A DNA stretch of 36,148 nucleotides, from positions 1 through 36,148 of the forward strand of contig JAJZOZ010000008.1 of NCBI GenBank assembly GCA_021811405.1, given 5' to 3'. The notes beneath the pieces are model-generated. The model saw nothing but the letters and a program-made list of their open reading frames with translations, was not told the origin of the DNA and did no database searches. Below are positions 16,241 to 36,148 of the stretch, in pieces. A program made the translations under genes and the position numbers. Positions within the stretch are counted from its first letter, which is position 1; each line of letters starts with the position of its first letter. The stretch is from a bacterium. Its GTDB lineage: Bacteria; Elusimicrobiota; Elusimicrobia; Elusimicrobiales; UBA9959.

Positions 16241-17683
16241 ATGAAAAAGACCGCCAGGAAACCCGCCCCGAAGGCTTCGCGCCTGACCTACGCCCCGAAG
16301 AACGGCTACGAGAAGATCTCCCCCGCCGAGCTGAAGCGCTGCGAGGAAGTCAACCGGTCCTACATGGATTTCATAACCAAGGCCAAGACCGAGCGCGAAG
16401 CCCACGACGAGGCCGTACTGCTGCTCGAGGCCGCCGGCTTCAGGAACATGAAGCAGCTGGAGAAGGAAGGGACCCGCCTGGTCCCCGGCGACAGGGTCTA
16501 CCGCTCCAGCGAGGGCAAGACGCTGATGGCCGTCGTGGTGGGAAAAAAGCCTCTCGAGGCCGGCATGCACATCGTGGGCGGCCACACCGACTCGCCCCGC
16601 ATAGACCTGAAGCAGAACCCGCTCTACGAGAAGGACGGCCTGGCCCTGCTGGACACCCATTATTACGGCGGCATCAAGAAGTACCAGTGGCTGACGATAC
16701 CGCTGGCGCTGCACGGCGTGGTGGCGAAGCCCGACGGCAAGATGGTGAAGGTCTGCATAGGCGAGGACCCCTCCGAGCCGGTGCTCTGCATCACGGACCT
16801 GCTGCCCCACCTGGGCGCCGAGCAGGCCCGCAAGCCGCTGGGAGAGGCCGTCCCCGGCGAGAGCCTCGACGTCGTCGCGGGCTCCATACCCGCCGCCGAC
16901 AAGGACAAGAAGGAGAAGATCAAGCACAACCTCCTCTCGCTGCTGAACAGGAAGTACGGCATCACCGAGGAGGACTTTCTCTCGGCCGAGCTGGAGATAG
17001 TCCCCGCCGCCAAGCCGCGCGAGGCTGGCCTCGACCGCTCGATGGTGCTGGCCTACGGCCACGACGACCGCGTCTGCGCCTACGCGGGCCTGAAGGCCCT
17101 GCTGGACCTGAAGGGAACGCCGGAATACACCGCCTGCGTGCTGCTCTGCGACAAGGAGGAGATCGGCTCCGTCGGCGCCACCGGAATGGCCTCGTTCCTG
17201 TTCGAGAACTCCTCGGCCGAGCTGCTGAACCTGACCTCCGACTCCTACAGCGAGCTCTCGCTCAAGCGGGCCCTGCACAACTCCTGGATGCTGTCGGCCG
17301 ACGTCAACGGCCTGTTCGACCCGATGTTCCCCTCGGTCAACGAGAGGCGCAACACCGCGTTCGTCAACCACGGGGTCTGCGTGACCAAGTTCACCGGCTC
17401 CCGCGGCAAGTCAGGCTCCTCCGACGCCAGCGCTGAATTCATGGCCCATATCCGCCGCATCTTCGACCGCGGCGGCGTGATCTGGCAGACCGGCGAGCTC
17501 GGCAAGGTCGACCAGGGCGGCGGCGGCACCATAGCTCAGTTCATGGCCCGCTACGGCATGCAGGTGGTGGACTGCGGCGTCGGGCTCTTCTCGATGCACG
17601 CGCCGATGGAGCTGGCGGGCAAGCTGGACATCTACATGGCCTACAAGGGCTACCTCGCCTTCATGAAGGACGCCCGGAAGTAA
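16241..17683 (+). CDS. M18-family aminopeptidase
   Basis: This 480-residue cytoplasmic dinuclear-zinc aminopeptidase removes N-terminal residues from peptides. M18 motifs are 'GGHTDSPRIDLKQNP' (metal ligand H115), 'LDTHYYGGIKKYQW', 'LCDKEEIGSVGATG' (catalytic E306-E307 region), 'SADVNGLFDPMFPSVNE' and 'VDQGGGGTIAQFMAR', ending 'VGLFSMHAPMELAGKLDIYM'. The length fits the bacterial ApeA-type members. A lysine-rich N-terminus (MKKTARKPAPKASR) is not a signal peptide. It has a good Shine-Dalgarno. A structured repeat begins 10 nt after its stop, and an asparaginase homologue follows, so the two could form one amino-acid-scavenging unit. Confidence 0.95.
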   Translation: MKKTARKPAPKASRLTYAPKNGYEKISPAELKRCEEVNRSYMDFITKAKTEREAHDEAVLLLEAAGFRNMKQLEKEGTRLVPGDRVYRSSEGKTLMAVVVGKKPLEAGMHIVGGHTDSPRIDLKQNPLYEKDGLALLDTHYYGGIKKYQWLTIPLALHGVVAKPDGKMVKVCIGEDPSEPVLCITDLLPHLGAEQARKPLGEAVPGESLDVVAGSIPAADKDKKEKIKHNLLSLLNRKYGITEEDFLSAELEIVPAAKPREAGLDRSMVLAYGHDDRVCAYAGLKALLDLKGTPEYTACVLLCDKEEIGSVGATGMASFLFENSSAELLNLTSDSYSELSLKRALHNSWMLSADVNGLFDPMFPSVNERRNTAFVNHGVCVTKFTGSRGKSGSSDASAEFMAHIRRIFDRGGVIWQTGELGKVDQGGGGTIAQFMARYGMQVVDCGVGLFSMHAPMELAGKLDIYMAYKGYLAFMKDARK

Positions 17684-17692
17684 GATAAGAAT

Positions 17693-17823
17693 GGATGCCA
17701 GCCGGACCGGAACGCAAAACACGCGGTCGTCCACACCGTGGCCGCCGCTCGTCACTCCCTCGCCGCGCTACGCAAGCGGCTTCGGTCCGCGACGGTTTTG
17801 CTAACCCGGTCCGGCCGTCATCC
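17693..17823 (+). repeat. Structured palindromic element, copy A
   Basis: This 131-bp gene-free element is bounded by imperfect inverted arms (17693-17720 and 17795-17823) that pair through a 5-bp, a 10-bp (GCCGGACCGG) and a 7-bp (GCAAAAC) block. The interior (17725-17793) aligns without gaps over most of its length with the interior of copy B (30982-31050), including the identical string GCGCTACGCAAGC and near-identical CTC.TCACTC. The interior contains a small hairpin with apex CACACCGTG, and GCCGC-GCTACGCAA-GCGGC. It lies 9 nt after the M18 stop and 24 nt before the asparaginase start. It resembles no element family I can name; a mobile palindromic repeat, RNA element or 3'-end structure are all possible. 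Confidence 0.7.
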
Positions 17824-17847
17824 GCGGCCAGTTGACCTTTCCATCTT

Positions 17848-30589: not shown

Positions 30590-30910
30590 ATGGACGACAG
30601 GCGCGTTTCCGTTGCCGAGGAGGTCATAGAGCCGGAGCTGCTCAGCCCCGGGGCCGGGCCGCGCCCGGAGCGTCCCGCCGGGCCTCCGCCTTCCCCTCCC
30701 GGACTGCTCTGGCGCCTGAAGGGCGCTCTCGCCGGGGTACTCGGGCTGGCCGGGGCGGCCCTGCTGCTGACCGGGGCGCTGCTCACCTCCACCGTCATAG
30801 GCGCGCTGCTCGGCATCCCGCTGATGCTGGCCGGCGCCTTCGCCTTCTACCTGCTGTTAAAGCTGCTGGGTTCCGGGTCCCGGCACACCTTCACCTTCCG
30901 CCGCTTCTGA
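30590..30910 (+). CDS. Small membrane protein of unknown function
   Basis: This 106-residue protein has an acidic/proline-rich N-terminal cytoplasmic-type segment (about 1-42), then two closely spaced hydrophobic helices (about 45-66 and 69-92) separated by a short turn ('LLTSTVIGALLGIPLMLAG'). It ends in a basic, aromatic tail (HTFTFRRF). I recognise no family. A precisely placed -10 element and codon usage like its neighbours support it as a real gene. It stands alone; a structured repeat (copy B) begins 40 nt after its stop. Confidence 0.7.
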   Translation: MDDRRVSVAEEVIEPELLSPGAGPRPERPAGPPPSPPGLLWRLKGALAGVLGLAGAALLLTGALLTSTVIGALLGIPLMLAGAFAFYLLLKLLGSGSRHTFTFRRF

Positions 30911-30950
30911 CTCCCTTTTCCGCACTCCTTATCTCCAACACTATCCTCAG

Positions 30951-31078
30951 GGCCGGCGGGCACATAGGTCCGTCGGCACGGGGTCGCGAACACCGTTCGC
31001 GCCCCTCCTCACTCGGCCTCGGCGCTACGCAAGCCTCGGCCTCCGCGAAGGCACTCCGGACCTATGTGCCCGCCGGCC
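30951..31078 (+). repeat. Structured palindromic element, copy B
   Basis: This 128-bp element is bounded by perfect 22-bp inverted arms (30951-30972 and 31057-31078) that differ entirely from the arms of copy A. The interior 30982-31050 aligns with 17725-17793 of copy A; it contains a strong hairpin GGGG-T-CGCGAAC-ACC-GTTCGCG-C-CCC, then CCTCACTC, then the shared GCGCTACGCAAGC. It lies between the 3' ends of the small membrane protein and the alpha-2-macroglobulin gene (stop 3 nt away). No T-tract follows. It may end transcription from both sides, but the conserved interior is not explained by a terminator role. Confidence 0.7.
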
Positions 31079-31081
31079 CCG

Positions 31082-34000
31082 CTACTTCACGTTCAGCGTA
31101 AAGCCCGCCGAATGCGCCGCGAACTCCGGCGCGTACATCGACTGTATCACCGCCGCCCCGGCCTTGAAAGTGCCGGGCGCCGTAGGCCGCAGCCGGTACT
31201 TCAGCACGTATTCCCCGTGCGGCAGCCATTCCACGAAGAAGTTCGTGAGGGAGTCGCGCGGCTCCTCGTAGCGCGCCAGCTGCTCCCACTTCCAGCCGCT
31301 GGTCAGCTGCTCGGCCTCGAAACCGGCGGCCTTCGGGTCCATGATGCGCACGTATTCGAACTGCGAGCGCGTCCTGACTGTGAGGTGCACCTCCACCTCG
31401 TCCCCGACATTGACCGCGTCCCCGTCGGAGAGAGGCTTCAGGGCGTAGTCCGCCCCCTCCTTCGCGCGCAGGAAATACCGGCGCGAGACGTTCATCATCC
31501 CGTCGGGGGACTCCTTCGCCTGCCTGTCGGTCGTATAGATGCCGGTGAAAGAGGCGAAGGCCAGGCCTGGCCCCTTCTTCCGCACGGTCGGGGAGAGGTC
31601 CCCGGCTGTCACTTCGTCGCCGTACTTGGACCAGCGCAGCGGCTTCGAGACCCAGTCGAACGGCTTCAGCTCCACCTTCTCCGTGGCGGAGCCCATGGTC
31701 ACCGAGAAAGAGTCCCCTTTGTCCAGGGCGCCCCTGGCCTTCATAACGTCCAGCAGCGAATAGATGGCCGCGGCGGAGGCCTTCGTGGACTTCCATTCGT
31801 TGTTCTTGCGGTTGAACAGCAGCCACCGCACCATGCCCGGTATCCGGGCGTCCTTCGGCCGCACCGCCAGCAGCGTGCGCAGGATGAAAGCGTGCTTCTC
31901 CACGGTGTCGTTGTACCAGAGCCAGGAGATCTTCTCGGGGGCCCAGTAGACTCCGGAGATATCGTCGGAGCGCGCGCCCTGCATCGCCCCGTCCAGGTAA
32001 GCCCCGGCCTTCTGCTTCTGCCCCAGCCTCAGGTAGACGTACGCCGCGTAGGCCTTGCCCAGCGGGGTCATGGCGGCCGAATGCCTGTCGGCGTAATCGA
32101 CCCAGGCCTTGGCGTAGTTCCTGGCCGTCGCGGCCTCGGGCCAGTCGGCCGGGAACGAGGTGACCACGTAGGCCGCGTATAGCGCCGTCGAGGTCTCCTC
32201 CGGGGCGGGCTTCATGTGCCCCGGGATCTCGGAGAGGGTCCAGGAGAGCGCCCTCTTGGCCATGTCCGCGGGGATGTCCACGCCGTAGCGGGCGGCCTCG
32301 GCCAGGCCCTCCAGCAGGTAAAGCGTCATGTAGAGGCTGGACCTGCCGCCGGGGAACCACGGGAAGGAGCCGTCGGAGAGCTGGTAGGACTTCAGCTTCT
32401 CGAAGGCCTCCCCCTTCTCGGCGGAGACCTTCGCCGGGTCCAGCATGTCCACGACCGGCCAGTAGGACCGGCGGCCGCGGGACTCCGTTTCCCAGGGGGT
32501 CTCCATCAGCGTCATCAGGCGCGCCGGATCGTCCCTGTCCCATTCCGGGGTGAGCGTGGTGCGCCTGGGCAGTTTCGCGGCGGCCTCCCGCAGGGCCGGG
32601 TACTTGCCGTAGAAGCTGTTCGTTATGGCCAGCGGCACGTAGCGGTTCAGCAGCTGCTCGGTGCATTCGTAGGGATAGTGCACCAGGAACGGCAGGCTGT
32701 TGAGCACCGTCAGGATCAGCTGCGGCTGCACCTCCAGGTGCACGGACTCGGTGCGCCGGGTCGGGTCCGGCTCGGTCAGTTCCGGAAGCGAGAAGGTCTT
32801 TGAGGAATTGCCGTCAAGGGCGGCCGCCTGCGAGGCGATAAGGCGCTCGCGGGAAGGCAGCACCGGCAGGTCGTTCTCCTGCGCGTCGGCAAGGCGCCCG
32901 GCGCGGGCCGCGGCCCGGACCTTGTAGACGCCGGTGCCGCGCGGCGCGGCGATGTCCCAGTAAACGGGCGCCGTGCCTCCCGCCCTGACCCGGAAGGACC
33001 TCGCCGGCGTCTTCACTCCGAAGTCCCCGGCCGCTTCTTCGCCGTCGCGGGCTATCCGGAGCGAGACCTCTCCGGAAAGCTCGCCTTCGGTATCGTTCGT
33101 GACCAGCGCGGTAAGCCTGGAGCGGTCTCCCTCGCGGAAGAAGCGCGGGATGTCCAGTCTGACCATCAGGTCCTTTCGCGTGACGGCCTCGGCGGAGAAA
33201 GCCCCGCGCTTAACGTCGCCGGTGATCAGGTATGAGCCGATCTTCCAGGAGGTCAGGCGTTCCGGGATGGAGAAGGAGAAGGTCCCCTTGCCTTTCGCGA
33301 CTTTAAGCTGCGGCTCGTAAAAAGCCGTCTCGGAGAAGTCGGAGCGGACCTTCACGTCCGGTCCCGGGAGGTCGGCCTGCTCGGCGGGCGCGGCCGGCCG
33401 GCCGGGAGCCGGGGCCTTGTCCTTCATCGCCATGGAGTTCCGGGCCGCGGGCGCCATTTCCTGGGCGGCTTCGCCCAGGGCGTCCGCTGATCCCCCCTCG
33501 AAGGCCAGGCTCTTGGCGTAGGCCATACCGCCCCTGCCGCCGTAGACCTGCGAGGAGGCTATACGCAGCGAGGCCAGCTTCCGCTCCAGGGAGGCCGCCC
33601 GGAAGGCGTCGAGCATCCGCCTCACTATCCCCTTGCGCACCGGCAGGTCGGTCACCTGCGGCGTGAACAGGGAGCCCAGCGCCTCGCCCGAAGAATAGCG
33701 CCGCGGGTAGAGCTGGTCCGGCCAGGCCCCGCCGTCGGCGGCGTAATACTCCAGCGAGCGGTCGAACACCTTGACCCTGGCCTCTCCGGAAACGGCCCTG
33801 CCGGCCGCGTCCCGGGCCCGCAGCGTCCAGGAGACCTTCTGCCCTGGCAGCATCGCCTTGTCGTAATCCAGCGAGAGCGAGACGCTCTTGTTCCTGAAAG
33901 GCACCTGGGCGTCGGCCATGCCCGAATAGACGCGGAAATCCCCGGCGCCCAGCCAGCGTACGCCGAAGCCGCCCCGGTGGGGGGCGCCGACCTTCACGCT

Positions 34001-36148
34001 GAAGACCGAAAGCCCGCCCTCCTTCACCGTGGCGCGGGAAAGCACGAAATTGCCGGCCAGTACTTCCGCGAACTTGGCTCCGCGCACCCCGGAGCCGCCT
34101 ATCAGCGCCCTCGCGGTCTCGCCGGGCTGATAGGAATCCCGCTCGAACAGCGTGACCGGGGGCAGGCGCAGCTTCCCGTTCCCGCCGGCTTCCCGCGAGG
34201 CGCAGACCAGGACCACGGAAGATTCGGAACGGCCCCCCCACGGGTCCTTGACGGAGAGCTTAAGCCGGTAGGCTCCCGGCTGCAGGCGGCCCAGCTCGAC
34301 GGCCGACGTCCCCTTCTGGGCGGCGCTCACCCTGCCCCTGGAGACCTGCGGCCCGTCGGGCACGGCGCTGAAGGCCTGTTCGAGCGAGGGATTGGCGCCC
34401 AGGTAGCTCCAGCGGCCGGCATCCGGCTGGCCCGGCTCGCCCTCCAGTCTGTAGAGCTGGTATTCGGCGTCGGCCGCCTGCTGAGAATCGTTCAGGTCGA
34501 GAACGCGCACGTCCACCGCCGCGGGCTTTTCAGGGGTGAAGAAGCCGGCCTGCGGGGCCACGTCGAAAAGATAGGCCTTGGAGCCGGCCCTGTAGTTCCG
34601 CGAGGCGGAAATGGTCCTGCCTCCCGCGTCCATGGTCTCGGCCTCGACCCGGTAGGAGGAAGGGTAGTCCTCGTAGGAGTCGCTTTCCGGCGCCGGGGTG
34701 AAGCCGAAGGAGAATTTCCCGTCGTCGCCGGTCACCGTCTGCCCGGACGCCACTTCCGACTCCGCCCCTCCGCCGTAAACCCAGCGCCAGTACCAGCAGT
34801 AGTAAGGGATATAGCGGGAGCGCTTGACTCGGTATTTCACCACCGCTCCCGGTACGGGAGACCCGAAATAGTAGCGTGCCTCTCCGGTCACGGAGGCTTT
34901 CTGCCCGTAGCGGTAAGGCCTGTCCGGCGCCGCCAGCGTCACTTCGAACTCGGGTCTCTTGTATTCCTCCACCCGGAAATTGGCGGAACCGGAGTAGCTC
35001 CTCCCGAAGTCGGAGACGGTGGCCGTCAGCGTGTAGCCGCCCAGCAGGCGCCCCTCGGGCACTTTGAAGGAGGCCGCCGCGCTGCCCAGGCCCGTCAGCG
35101 GGAGGTCGGCGGAATAAAGCTCCTGCCAGTTCGCGTCCCGCGCGACTACGCTGATCTTCGACTTCCCGTCGTAGGTCTTGTAGCCTCCGGGCAGGCGCAG
35201 GAGCGCGGTGGCCTTGAACTTCACCTCCTGGCCCGGCCGGTATACCGGGCGGTCGGTCTCGGCGAAAACGGAGACCGGCGGCGGCACGTTCAGATAGGCG
35301 CCGGCCTGCGAGCCCCAGTAGGCGTAGGCCCCGCCGTAGCTCAGCAGCGGGTCTACGGAAAGGTACTCGTAGCGGGCCGCGTCGATCCTGAAGGTGTCGG
35401 AGAAGGCGGCGCTGCCGTCCTCCCCCGCCGAGAGCTCGCGCTTCTGCCAGCCGGCCGCGCCGGAACGGGAGAAGGCGGCGTCTATCCTGGCGCCGGCGAG
35501 CGGCTTGCCGTCTAGGGCGTTCACGGCGTAGAAGCGCATAGCGTCCGCCTGGACGTTTCGGCCCGGCGCGGCGGGGTCGAAAAGGAAGTTCTCCGGGTCG
35601 CCGCCTAAACCGGTGGTGCCCAGCAGGAACACGTCGGTTATGTTGAGGATCGCGGCCTTTATGATGGAAGAGCCGTCGTCGAAGTCCCCGTCGCCGGAAG
35701 CGACTACGGCATAGAGCCCCTTCTCGAAAGGAGGCGTATCGACCCGCTGGTCGGCGTAGCGGTACTTGCCCGGGTAGGTCACGGCCTGGCGCCATTCCAG
35801 CGCCGGCTTGCGGGACAGCAGCGCCCGCACCGCGTCCGGCGGCAGGTAACGCAGCTTTTGCAGCGCGTCGCCGTCCCTTCCCGAAAGTTCGCGGAGCTCC
35901 GCCGGGTCGGTCCGGTAGGCGCGGAAATAGACCTGCGGGATATTGCGCGCGCTGACGGAGACGGCCCCGTCGCCGGGCGGCGGGCGGGAAACGGCGGAAA
36001 GCTCGAGGCGCGGCAGTTCTATCTCCGCCCTCATGCTGGCGCAGGAGGCCGCCGGCTTGGACCCGGGAGAGAGCGACTCCGCGCGCTTGCAGAGGCTCAC
36101 GACCTCCTCGAAATCGGAGTTGCCTGATTCCAGGACGGCGGCGCGGTA
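31082..36148 (-). CDS. Bacterial alpha-2-macroglobulin family protein (N-terminus beyond right edge)
   Basis: The frame is open to the right edge, giving 1688 residues in the window. A GTG at 36100 is in frame but is probably internal because the frame continues upstream with helical sequence. Macroglobulin modules follow in order: an MG1/MG2-type segment with 'VFAETDRPVYRPGQEVKFKA' (about 35200-35270), more MG domains, and a Gly/Ala/Pro-rich bait-like stretch (about 33350-33560). Next comes 'PPRF/IPRFFREGDRS'-type A2M core sequence, then the thioester domain with CTEQ at 32665-32654 in 'HYPYECTEQLLNRYVPLA', and a C-terminal receptor-like domain ('EYVLKYRLRPTAPGTFKAG'). Such proteins trap proteases that attack the envelope, bonding them covalently through the thioester. 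The usual partner PbpC is not visible here. The start, and any lipobox, are outside the window. Confidence 0.93.
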   Translation of the reverse strand, partial: YRAAVLESGNSDFEEVVSLCKRAESLSPGSKPAASCASMRAEIELPRLELSAVSRPPPGDGAVSVSARNIPQVYFRAYRTDPAELRELSGRDGDALQKLRYLPPDAVRALLSRKPALEWRQAVTYPGKYRYADQRVDTPPFEKGLYAVVASGDGDFDDGSSIIKAAILNITDVFLLGTTGLGGDPENFLFDPAAPGRNVQADAMRFYAVNALDGKPLAGARIDAAFSRSGAAGWQKRELSAGEDGSAAFSDTFRIDAARYEYLSVDPLLSYGGAYAYWGSQAGAYLNVPPPVSVFAETDRPVYRPGQEVKFKATALLRLPGGYKTYDGKSKISVVARDANWQELYSADLPLTGLGSAAASFKVPEGRLLGGYTLTATVSDFGRSYSGSANFRVEEYKRPEFEVTLAAPDRPYRYGQKASVTGEARYYFGSPVPGAVVKYRVKRSRYIPYYCWYWRWVYGGGAESEVASGQTVTGDDGKFSFGFTPAPESDSYEDYPSSYRVEAETMDAGGRTISASRNYRAGSKAYLFDVAPQAGFFTPEKPAAVDVRVLDLNDSQQAADAEYQLYRLEGEPGQPDAGRWSYLGANPSLEQAFSAVPDGPQVSRGRVSAAQKGTSAVELGRLQPGAYRLKLSVKDPWGGRSESSVVLVCASREAGGNGKLRLPPVTLFERDSYQPGETARALIGGSGVRGAKFAEVLAGNFVLSRATVKEGGLSVFSVKVGAPHRGGFGVRWLGAGDFRVYSGMADAQVPFRNKSVSLSLDYDKAMLPGQKVSWTLRARDAAGRAVSGEARVKVFDRSLEYYAADGGAWPDQLYPRRYSSGEALGSLFTPQVTDLPVRKGIVRRMLDAFRAASLERKLASLRIASSQVYGGRGGMAYAKSLAFEGGSADALGEAAQEMAPAARNSMAMKDKAPAPGRPAAPAEQADLPGPDVKVRSDFSETAFYEPQLKVAKGKGTFSFSIPERLTSWKIGSYLITGDVKRGAFSAEAVTRKDLMVRLDIPRFFREGDRSRLTALVTNDTEGELSGEVSLRIARDGEEAAGDFGVKTPARSFRVRAGGTAPVYWDIAAPRGTGVYKVRAAARAGRLADAQENDLPVLPSRERLIASQAAALDGNSSKTFSLPELTEPDPTRRTESVHLEVQPQLILTVLNSLPFLVHYPYECTEQLLNRYVPLAITNSFYGKYPALREAAAKLPRRTTLTPEWDRDDPARLMTLMETPWETESRGRRSYWPVVDMLDPAKVSAEKGEAFEKLKSYQLSDGSFPWFPGGRSSLYMTLYLLEGLAEAARYGVDIPADMAKRALSWTLSEIPGHMKPAPEETSTALYAAYVVTSFPADWPEAATARNYAKAWVDYADRHSAAMTPLGKAYAAYVYLRLGQKQKAGAYLDGAMQGARSDDISGVYWAPEKISWLWYNDTVEKHAFILRTLLAVRPKDARIPGMVRWLLFNRKNNEWKSTKASAAAIYSLLDVMKARGALDKGDSFSVTMGSATEKVELKPFDWVSKPLRWSKYGDEVTAGDLSPTVRKKGPGLAFASFTGIYTTDRQAKESPDGMMNVSRRYFLRAKEGADYALKPLSDGDAVNVGDEVEVHLTVRTRSQFEYVRIMDPKAAGFEAEQLTSGWKWEQLARYEEPRDSLTNFFVEWLPHGEYVLKYRLRPTAPGTFKAGAAVIQSMYAPEFAAHSAGFTLNVK

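Follow-up and report, generated by a model that had tools for sequence, protein, structure and literature searches.

A dispersed family of structured extragenic repeats in Elusimicrobiota

Two structured copies and the genes they adjoin

The window, that is, the whole 36,148-nucleotide stretch of DNA analysed here, carries two copies (A and B) of a structured element, both adjoined by ordinary chromosomal genes (Table 1). The match to copy A begins 6 nt past the stop codon of an M18 aminopeptidase gene and is followed by an asparaginase-like gene whose match to the asparaginase profiles is confined to their first half. Convergent stop codons enclose copy B, at distances of 37 nt (the one that ends at 30910) and 2 nt (the one at 31082).

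Table 1. Copies A and B, their parts and the adjoining genes, in positions of the window
Feature	Position	Strand	Basis
M18 aminopeptidase gene, ending just ahead of copy A	16241..17683	+	NCBIfam NF002600, 663.5 bits
Copy A, whole element	17690..17824	- (best-folding strand)	R1 match, 109.5 bits; in R1 training set
Copy A outer arm (3' arm on folding strand)	17693..17710		89% complementary to 17806-17823
Copy A inner stem P2, GCAAAAC	17714..17720		fold; pairs with GTTTTGC at 17795-17801
Copy A hairpin P4, tip CACACCGTG (CACGGTGTG on folding strand)	17723..17748	-	fold
Copy A hairpin P3, GCGCTACGCAAGC at tip (17765-17777)	17750..17793	-	fold and sequence search
Copy A inner stem P2, other side, GTTTTGC	17795..17801		fold
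Copy A outer arm (5' arm on folding strand)	17806..17823		89% complementary to 17693-17710
Asparaginase-like gene after copy A, 162 aa	17848..18336	+	TIGR00519, 65.8 bits, below cut-off
Copy B, whole element	30948..31079	-	R1 match, 122.7 bits; in R1 training set
Copy B outer arm	30950..30972		100% complementary to 31057-31079
Copy B hairpin P4, tip AACACCGTT	30980..31005	-	fold
Copy B hairpin P3, carrying GCGCTACGCAAGC (31022-31034)	31007..31051	-	fold and sequence search
Copy B outer arm, other side	31057..31079		100% complementary to 30950-30972
Alpha-2-macroglobulin family gene, stop codon 2 nt from copy B	31082..36100	-	Pfam MG2, A2M, A2M_BRD, bMG10

A sequence-only reading of the window had placed both copies at these positions, and their similarity proved real: the complementary arms (18 nt in A, 23 nt in B), the almost gap-free alignment of the cores and the 13-mer GCGCTACGCAAGC common to both were all verified. 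Allowing up to two mismatches, this 13-mer has 6 matches in the window against 2.5 expected, and the exact matches are those in A and B. Folding energies are lower on the minus strand, which we call the folding strand for the window copies, than on the plus strand (-80.5 versus -68.4 kcal/mol for A; -104.8 versus -90.1 kcal/mol for B), and comparison with shuffled sequences gave z-scores of -4.2 (A) and -10.0 (B) on the minus strand and of -3.3 and -8.7 on the plus strand.

Each copy consists of a long outer stem leading into a junction that carries two hairpins with conserved tips, forming a three-way junction of about 130 nt. Across the family the outer stem has a median of 23-24 matching positions, and the short inner stem reads AAAACC/GGTTTT in one group of copies and GGGCC/GGCCC in another. 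The tips are CTTGC-NNN-GCG in P3 and ACGGTGT in P4; the P3 triloop varies within the host genome of the window, while its two closing pairs are invariant there (67/67 each). The original description, in which the interior is conserved and the ends are unrelated, contrary to a MITE, applies to A against B but does not extend to the family: arms fall into related subfamilies, and the outermost bases share a faint motif, read by eye as a weak consensus GGGGTGRC...GRCAGGMCCC that is clearest in other genera. By eye, no constant tag marks the element ends. Three loci (L002, L007 and L001) bear a small nested hairpin, approximately GTGGAGCGAAGCGACAC, inside P3 or P4, like a repeat within a repeat. 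In some copies (L205, L211, L264, L055 and L062) the 3' end is succeeded by a recurring tail, approximately GACTTCRCATCTCGCGG, and the 8-mer TCTCGCGG is present in 14 flanks.

A dispersed family with covarying stems

Searching the host genome with a covariance model (R1) built from 31 copies, A and B among them, returned at least 70 matches at E <= 0.01, including A and B; this is a lower bound, as 150 of 3185 candidates were scored. Five of the 70 matches belong to the R1 training set, and the best match (E 4e-26) lies outside it. The host genome is a bin with 6.5% contamination that may mix strains, and it holds contigs that look like near-duplicates (L207/L247 and L212/L248, with flanks 86-94% alike), so a few of the 70 matches may stem from a second strain. 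One hairpin's tip motif occurs nine times in this genome, and eight of the nine occurrences are R1 matches, the exception being L009.

The elements extend well beyond this genome. The tip motif was found in 29 of 41 genomes, the host included: 24 of 25 from its genus and 5 of 16 from another family of the order. Matches fetched from that other family look like coding sequence; by eye the order-level matches L010-L014 and L038 fold unlike the elements and were set aside, and of the five genomes that hold them, G031, G034, G036 and G037 gave no R1 match in a phylum sample in which R1 matched 14 of 198 genomes. A second model, R2, built mostly from other genera, matched at least 38 of 196 genomes of the class: 17/17 of the genus, 13/21 others in the same family as the genus and 8 genomes in four further families (f5, f7, f24 and f27). 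These last hold at least 1-4 R2 copies per genome, a thin and less certain signal; per-genome R2 numbers are lower bounds, with at most 17 candidates scored in each genome, and the matches in G195 and G211 are partly there by construction, because their copies went into R2. By eye, the G195 locus (L331) reads as a true copy; the G211 loci (L332 and L338), and by extension the other f7 matches, are uncertain. A pattern scan of named genomes yielded at least 114 loci among the matches listed, of which 97 have titles naming Elusimicrobia, -ales or -ota, 6 say just 'bacterium' and 11 name other groups. When R1 was applied to 99 of the pattern-scan loci (L079-L177), the 11 loci of other groups gave a single match: L090, labelled Candidatus Magasanikbacteria, carries an element, has a flank resembling that of L159 and is probably a misbinned contig. 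We also rejected an association with phages, as the one viral contig that matched the motif pattern was without a covariance-model match.

The stems of the family covary strongly. Among 70 distinct copies from the host genome, 88.4% of alignment cells pair, two-sided changes affect 42 of 49 base pairs (33.4 on average after shuffling), and covariation scores 0.501, as compared to 0.149 in shuffled alignments and at most 0.109 in controls with slid pairing partners; none of 500 shuffles reached any of these measures. For a set of 45 distinct copies, drawn mainly from other genera, the score reaches 0.521, with controls at 0.113 or below. Both alignments were fitted to the structure of the model, which favours that structure. 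In an alignment of 31 copies made free of structure, 13 of 20 predicted pairs have changes on both sides. The idea that A and B resemble each other by chance in GC-rich sequence, to which the initial sighting of just two copies lent itself, has virtually no probability left: it is already refuted by matches down to E 4e-26, the best of them outside the training set, and by every covariation control.

To read which strand folds, we aligned the outer arms, giving G-T and A-C mismatches the same score, and tallied those mismatches that have matches on either side. The ratio of G-T to A-C on the folding strand is 28:3 in 70 copies, 46:10 in 109 and 9:2 in 45 (p 0.065), with p-values that are optimistic because the copies share ancestry; without the flanking rule, the first two sets give 66:9 and 141:17, with 179 and 122 other mismatches. 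By gene context the ratios are 37:6 ('--'), 16:4 ('++'), 15:3 ('+-') and 4:0 ('-+'), so that the bias persists for elements antisense (37:6) as well as sense (16:4) to their neighbours. A cruciform, in which both strands fold, would produce no such bias; hence a single strand folds, as RNA or as single-stranded DNA. These data strongly support the earlier suggestion of an RNA or DNA structure under selection, with its many intergenic copies, covarying arms and one-strand wobble bias, and are compatible, from sequence alone, with either RNA or single-stranded DNA. The two outcomes named beforehand as counting against that suggestion, a lack of further copies and arms that fail to covary, did not materialise: the host genome gave 70 matches, A and B included, and 42 of 49 pairs covary.

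Placement at gene ends and history at orthologous sites

The remark that both window copies lie immediately 3' of a gene turned out to describe a tendency of the whole family. Genes were called here, in relatives too, by a simple hexamer script trained on the host genome, and the placement counts exclude any called gene situated mainly within an element. None of 184 copies (70 from the host genome and 114 others) is wholly inside a called gene, while overlaps with gene ends occur (the largest is 116 nt). Copies are found at the 3' ends of genes and in many cases are flush with the stop codon. The 3' end of the element faces a stop codon in 53 of the 70 host copies and a start codon in 13 (4 unassigned), and it lies within 12 nt of the faced stop codon, overlaps counted, in 32/53 cases as compared to 2/30 for the 5' end (Fisher p 7e-7, with the 12-nt limit picked after the data had been seen). 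The named-genome set has a weaker trend (16/68 versus 3/59, p 0.005). Of the two copies in the host genome whose 5' end is the flush one, copy B is one. Across three sets, and counting doublet members singly, codirectional sites comprise 84 antisense and 50 sense elements, and sites between gene pairs comprise 42 convergent and 8 divergent ones; the folding strand is mostly antisense to the gene that it abuts.

Elements less than 130 nt apart are arranged head to head in 24/24 listed cases, one locus being listed twice and some of the loci being mutually orthologous, and further head-to-head pairs occur in other genera. By eye, the upstream partner of a doublet is often a relative that the covariance model missed. 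At L176:5430-5768 a small ORF, HNH-like with a score below the Pfam cut-off, separates two copies arranged head to head. In the host genome, two head-to-head copies 607 nt apart enclose an ORF (L264:1332-1823) that matches no family above cut-off and that the gene caller trained on this genome missed. One contig (L375:6028-9370, genome G285) has four similar tandem ORFs alternating with four copies, three of these genes being followed by a copy; the three ORFs tested all have an ORF6N domain.

Arrangements of this kind recall integron cassettes, and the elements could be attC-like recombination sites, with a folded bottom strand behind the stop codon that a tyrosine recombinase exchanges. The folding strand that is mostly antisense to the abutted gene and often flush with its stop codon would suit such a site, as would the alternating ORFs and copies at L375 and the small ORFs between head-to-head copies at L176 and L264. 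We nevertheless judge this very improbable: the conserved parts are hairpin tips rather than the end boxes that define attC, Rfam finds nothing over the elements searched, both window copies have chromosomal neighbours of an ordinary kind, and the tandem repeats at L375 are 75-78% identical, so that plain duplication suffices and we rejected a cassette array there.

We then considered sites that are orthologous between genomes. The M18 aminopeptidase gene of copy A was found in 26 of 32 genomes of the genus, and 3 of the 26, the host included, have the element at that site, so it is dispensable there. Judged by eye, the others comprise 8 genomes with a hairpin resembling a terminator, 8 with nothing but a gap of 6-24 nt, 3 with overlapping genes, 3 with a coding-looking gap of 572-694 nt and 1 with a gap of 40 nt. 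The two other carriers, G007 and G010, are sisters from which the host is split in a two-protein tree with a support of 99, indicating that loss, transfer or repeated insertion has occurred. The terminator-like hairpins at this spot, together with the position of the elements after stop codons, are what one might expect if they were ordinary intrinsic transcription terminators that are merely large. This is a very improbable account, however, since T-runs are not enriched (TTTT lies within 20 nt of 23 of 224 copies on the folding strand and of 19 on the other, against 25 and 24 in controls) and the strand with the wobble bias runs antisense to the majority of the genes that the elements abut.

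Flanks are homologous on both sides in 36 pairs of copies, of which we kept 30, several sharing a member, after dropping 3 from the same genome and 3 with a short flank match. Within these 30 pairs, 808 base pairs are the same, 290 have changed on both sides and 55 on one side while still pairing, 144 were broken by a change on one side and 80 by changes on both, and 11 pair in neither copy. Two-sided changes number 322 as compared to 159 expected if the sides were independent, and one-sided changes 120 as compared to 513. This excess is by itself no proof of change in place, because the arms of most pairs are no more alike than those of random copies (median 0.50 versus 0.50, p 0.1), and it would likewise appear if replacement or a new insertion had left two unrelated copies, each of them well paired, at the site. 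Core stems give the same picture (0.67 versus 0.69, p 0.31); unpaired positions alone differ (0.67 versus 0.62, p 0.005), and likeness of element and likeness of flank correlate weakly (rho 0.30, p 0.11).

One orthologous pair, L102:420-555 and L135:5039-5174, is clearly inherited. Its flanks are 79% and 82% identical, and among 49 shared base pairs 45 are the same, 3 have changed on both sides and 1 has gone from T-G to T-A; one G-C pair is gone from both arms, and the helices that both copies have contain no broken pair. Inheritance is also clear for L102:282-415/L135:4902-5035 (97%) and for L309/L313 (87%); by eye, L313 has lost most of P3. Upkeep in place is thereby strengthened at one site and, with the caveat from the 30 pairs, weakened elsewhere. 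Two routes seem to be at work, inheritance with compensation on the one hand and replacement or reinsertion on the other. The unusual insertion or duplication mechanism once proposed for the copy-specific arms is not needed, as compensated substitutions of the kind seen in this orthologous pair can make such arms.

What the elements may do and how they compare with known systems

Copies A and B are members of a large dispersed family of structured extragenic repeats of Elusimicrobiota, about 130 nt long. As to what the family does, we give about even chances to a lifestyle comparable to that of REP and BIME elements in which the repeats are used as RNA acting at gene 3' ends and were spread by a past enzyme. 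On this account one strand would fold so that a long outer stem, free in its letters and kept in its pairing, presents two hairpins with conserved tips, which a protein might contact; the fold would be used as RNA, its place directly after stop codons would suggest action on transcript 3' ends (on decay, on translation of the last codons or on stopping transcription from the other side), and an enzyme would have spread the copies in the past. A function at gene 3' ends is what we favour. Against this account stand copy B, which is flush by its 5' end, the 23/26 genomes that have no element at locus A, and the pairs at orthologous sites, most of which are no more alike in their arms than random copies. 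A role in the abutted gene's own mRNA is not a simple prediction, because the favoured strand is mostly antisense to that gene. A bolder version, which we think unlikely, would make the element a portable structured RNA serving as gene-end punctuation in Elusimicrobiota, with a free-sequence stem and two constant tips for a dedicated protein, transcribed against the gene end, exchangeable with ordinary terminators and present at dozens of genes per genome.

A doubtful but serious contender is a selfish, REPIN-like element: a single-stranded DNA hairpin, moved singly or head to head by a transposase, for which gene 3' ends are simply the sites of least harm. The one-strand bias and the head-to-head units would fit it, as would a subfamily of GWC2_64_44 whose near-identical members occupy separate loci and, by eye, end sharply on the 3' side, and the many orthologous sites that hold unrelated copies or none. 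Against it, we looked for a RAYT/Y1 mobiliser and rejected it: none of 30 Y1 loci (from 86 Y1 matches, with flanks of about 1.5 kb) holds an element, and 4 of 31 genomes of the genus have no Y1_Tnp match and still hold at least 14-17 elements each. An autonomous element between head-to-head copies was likewise rejected, no mobiliser gene being recognised between the few widely spaced copies examined: the 1.8-kb interval at L356 contains ordinary-looking genes, presumably of a microcompartment, and those at L176 and L264 contain small ORFs. By eye no clean target-site duplication is evident in the flank lists, which offered no near-identical empty site for comparison, and the one orthologous site with compensated changes favours maintenance of copies once they are inserted.

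The family would offer a way to test whether repeats scattered through a genome can be RNA structures that the host maintains. A dispersed repeat with such strong stem covariation and a clear functional strand is unusual, and sequence-based searches would split or miss such a family. The phylum has been little studied, and the family, a sizeable feature of it without an Rfam entry, should be carried by genome annotation and RNA catalogues.

Several known systems share parts of this description. Rfam-type structured non-coding RNAs have covarying stems, conserved loops and a one-strand wobble bias in common with the element, which differs in having dozens of copies per genome at varied genes and no Rfam match: Rfam gave 0 matches in the window at the curated threshold, the one at which copy B was searched, and at a permissive threshold none over copy A or over the elements at six further loci. 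At L054:4372-4450, GWC2_64_44 has a c-di-GMP-I riboswitch (60 bits) with no relation to the element. In integron attC sites, too, one strand folds and the site follows a gene's stop codon; attC is defined by conserved end boxes that IntI recognises, and the element, whose conserved parts are internal hairpin tips, would differ in this. REP (PU) and BIME/REPIN elements of E. coli and Pseudomonas are, like the element, extragenic, palindromic and present in many copies, and they are arranged in inverted pairs, as are 23/23 distinct close neighbours here. REPs are single hairpins of about 20-40 nt with a GTAG-type tag, typically linked to RAYT; the element, in contrast, is a three-way junction of some 130 nt with sequence-free covarying stems, is absent beside the 30 Y1 loci examined and has no constant end tag by eye. 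Part of the E. coli REPs, like part of the elements, lie within 15 nt of a stop codon, where they are reported to stall ribosomes (PMC12306157). The MITEs ERIC/RU-1, NEMIS/Correia, RUP and CIR resemble the element in size (about 100-200 bp), intergenic place and transcripts predicted to fold, and ERIC has an orientation-dependent effect on mRNA (PMC2229807); several of these MITEs are described with terminal inverted repeats and TA-type target sites (PMC2229807), whereas the element has long arms that covary without a fixed sequence and only a faint end motif. In the titles and abstract openings of a mostly open-access literature we recognised no description of this repeat family. The best reading is that it is new, REP/BIME-like in arrangement and distinct in size, in architecture and in its covarying, sequence-free stems.
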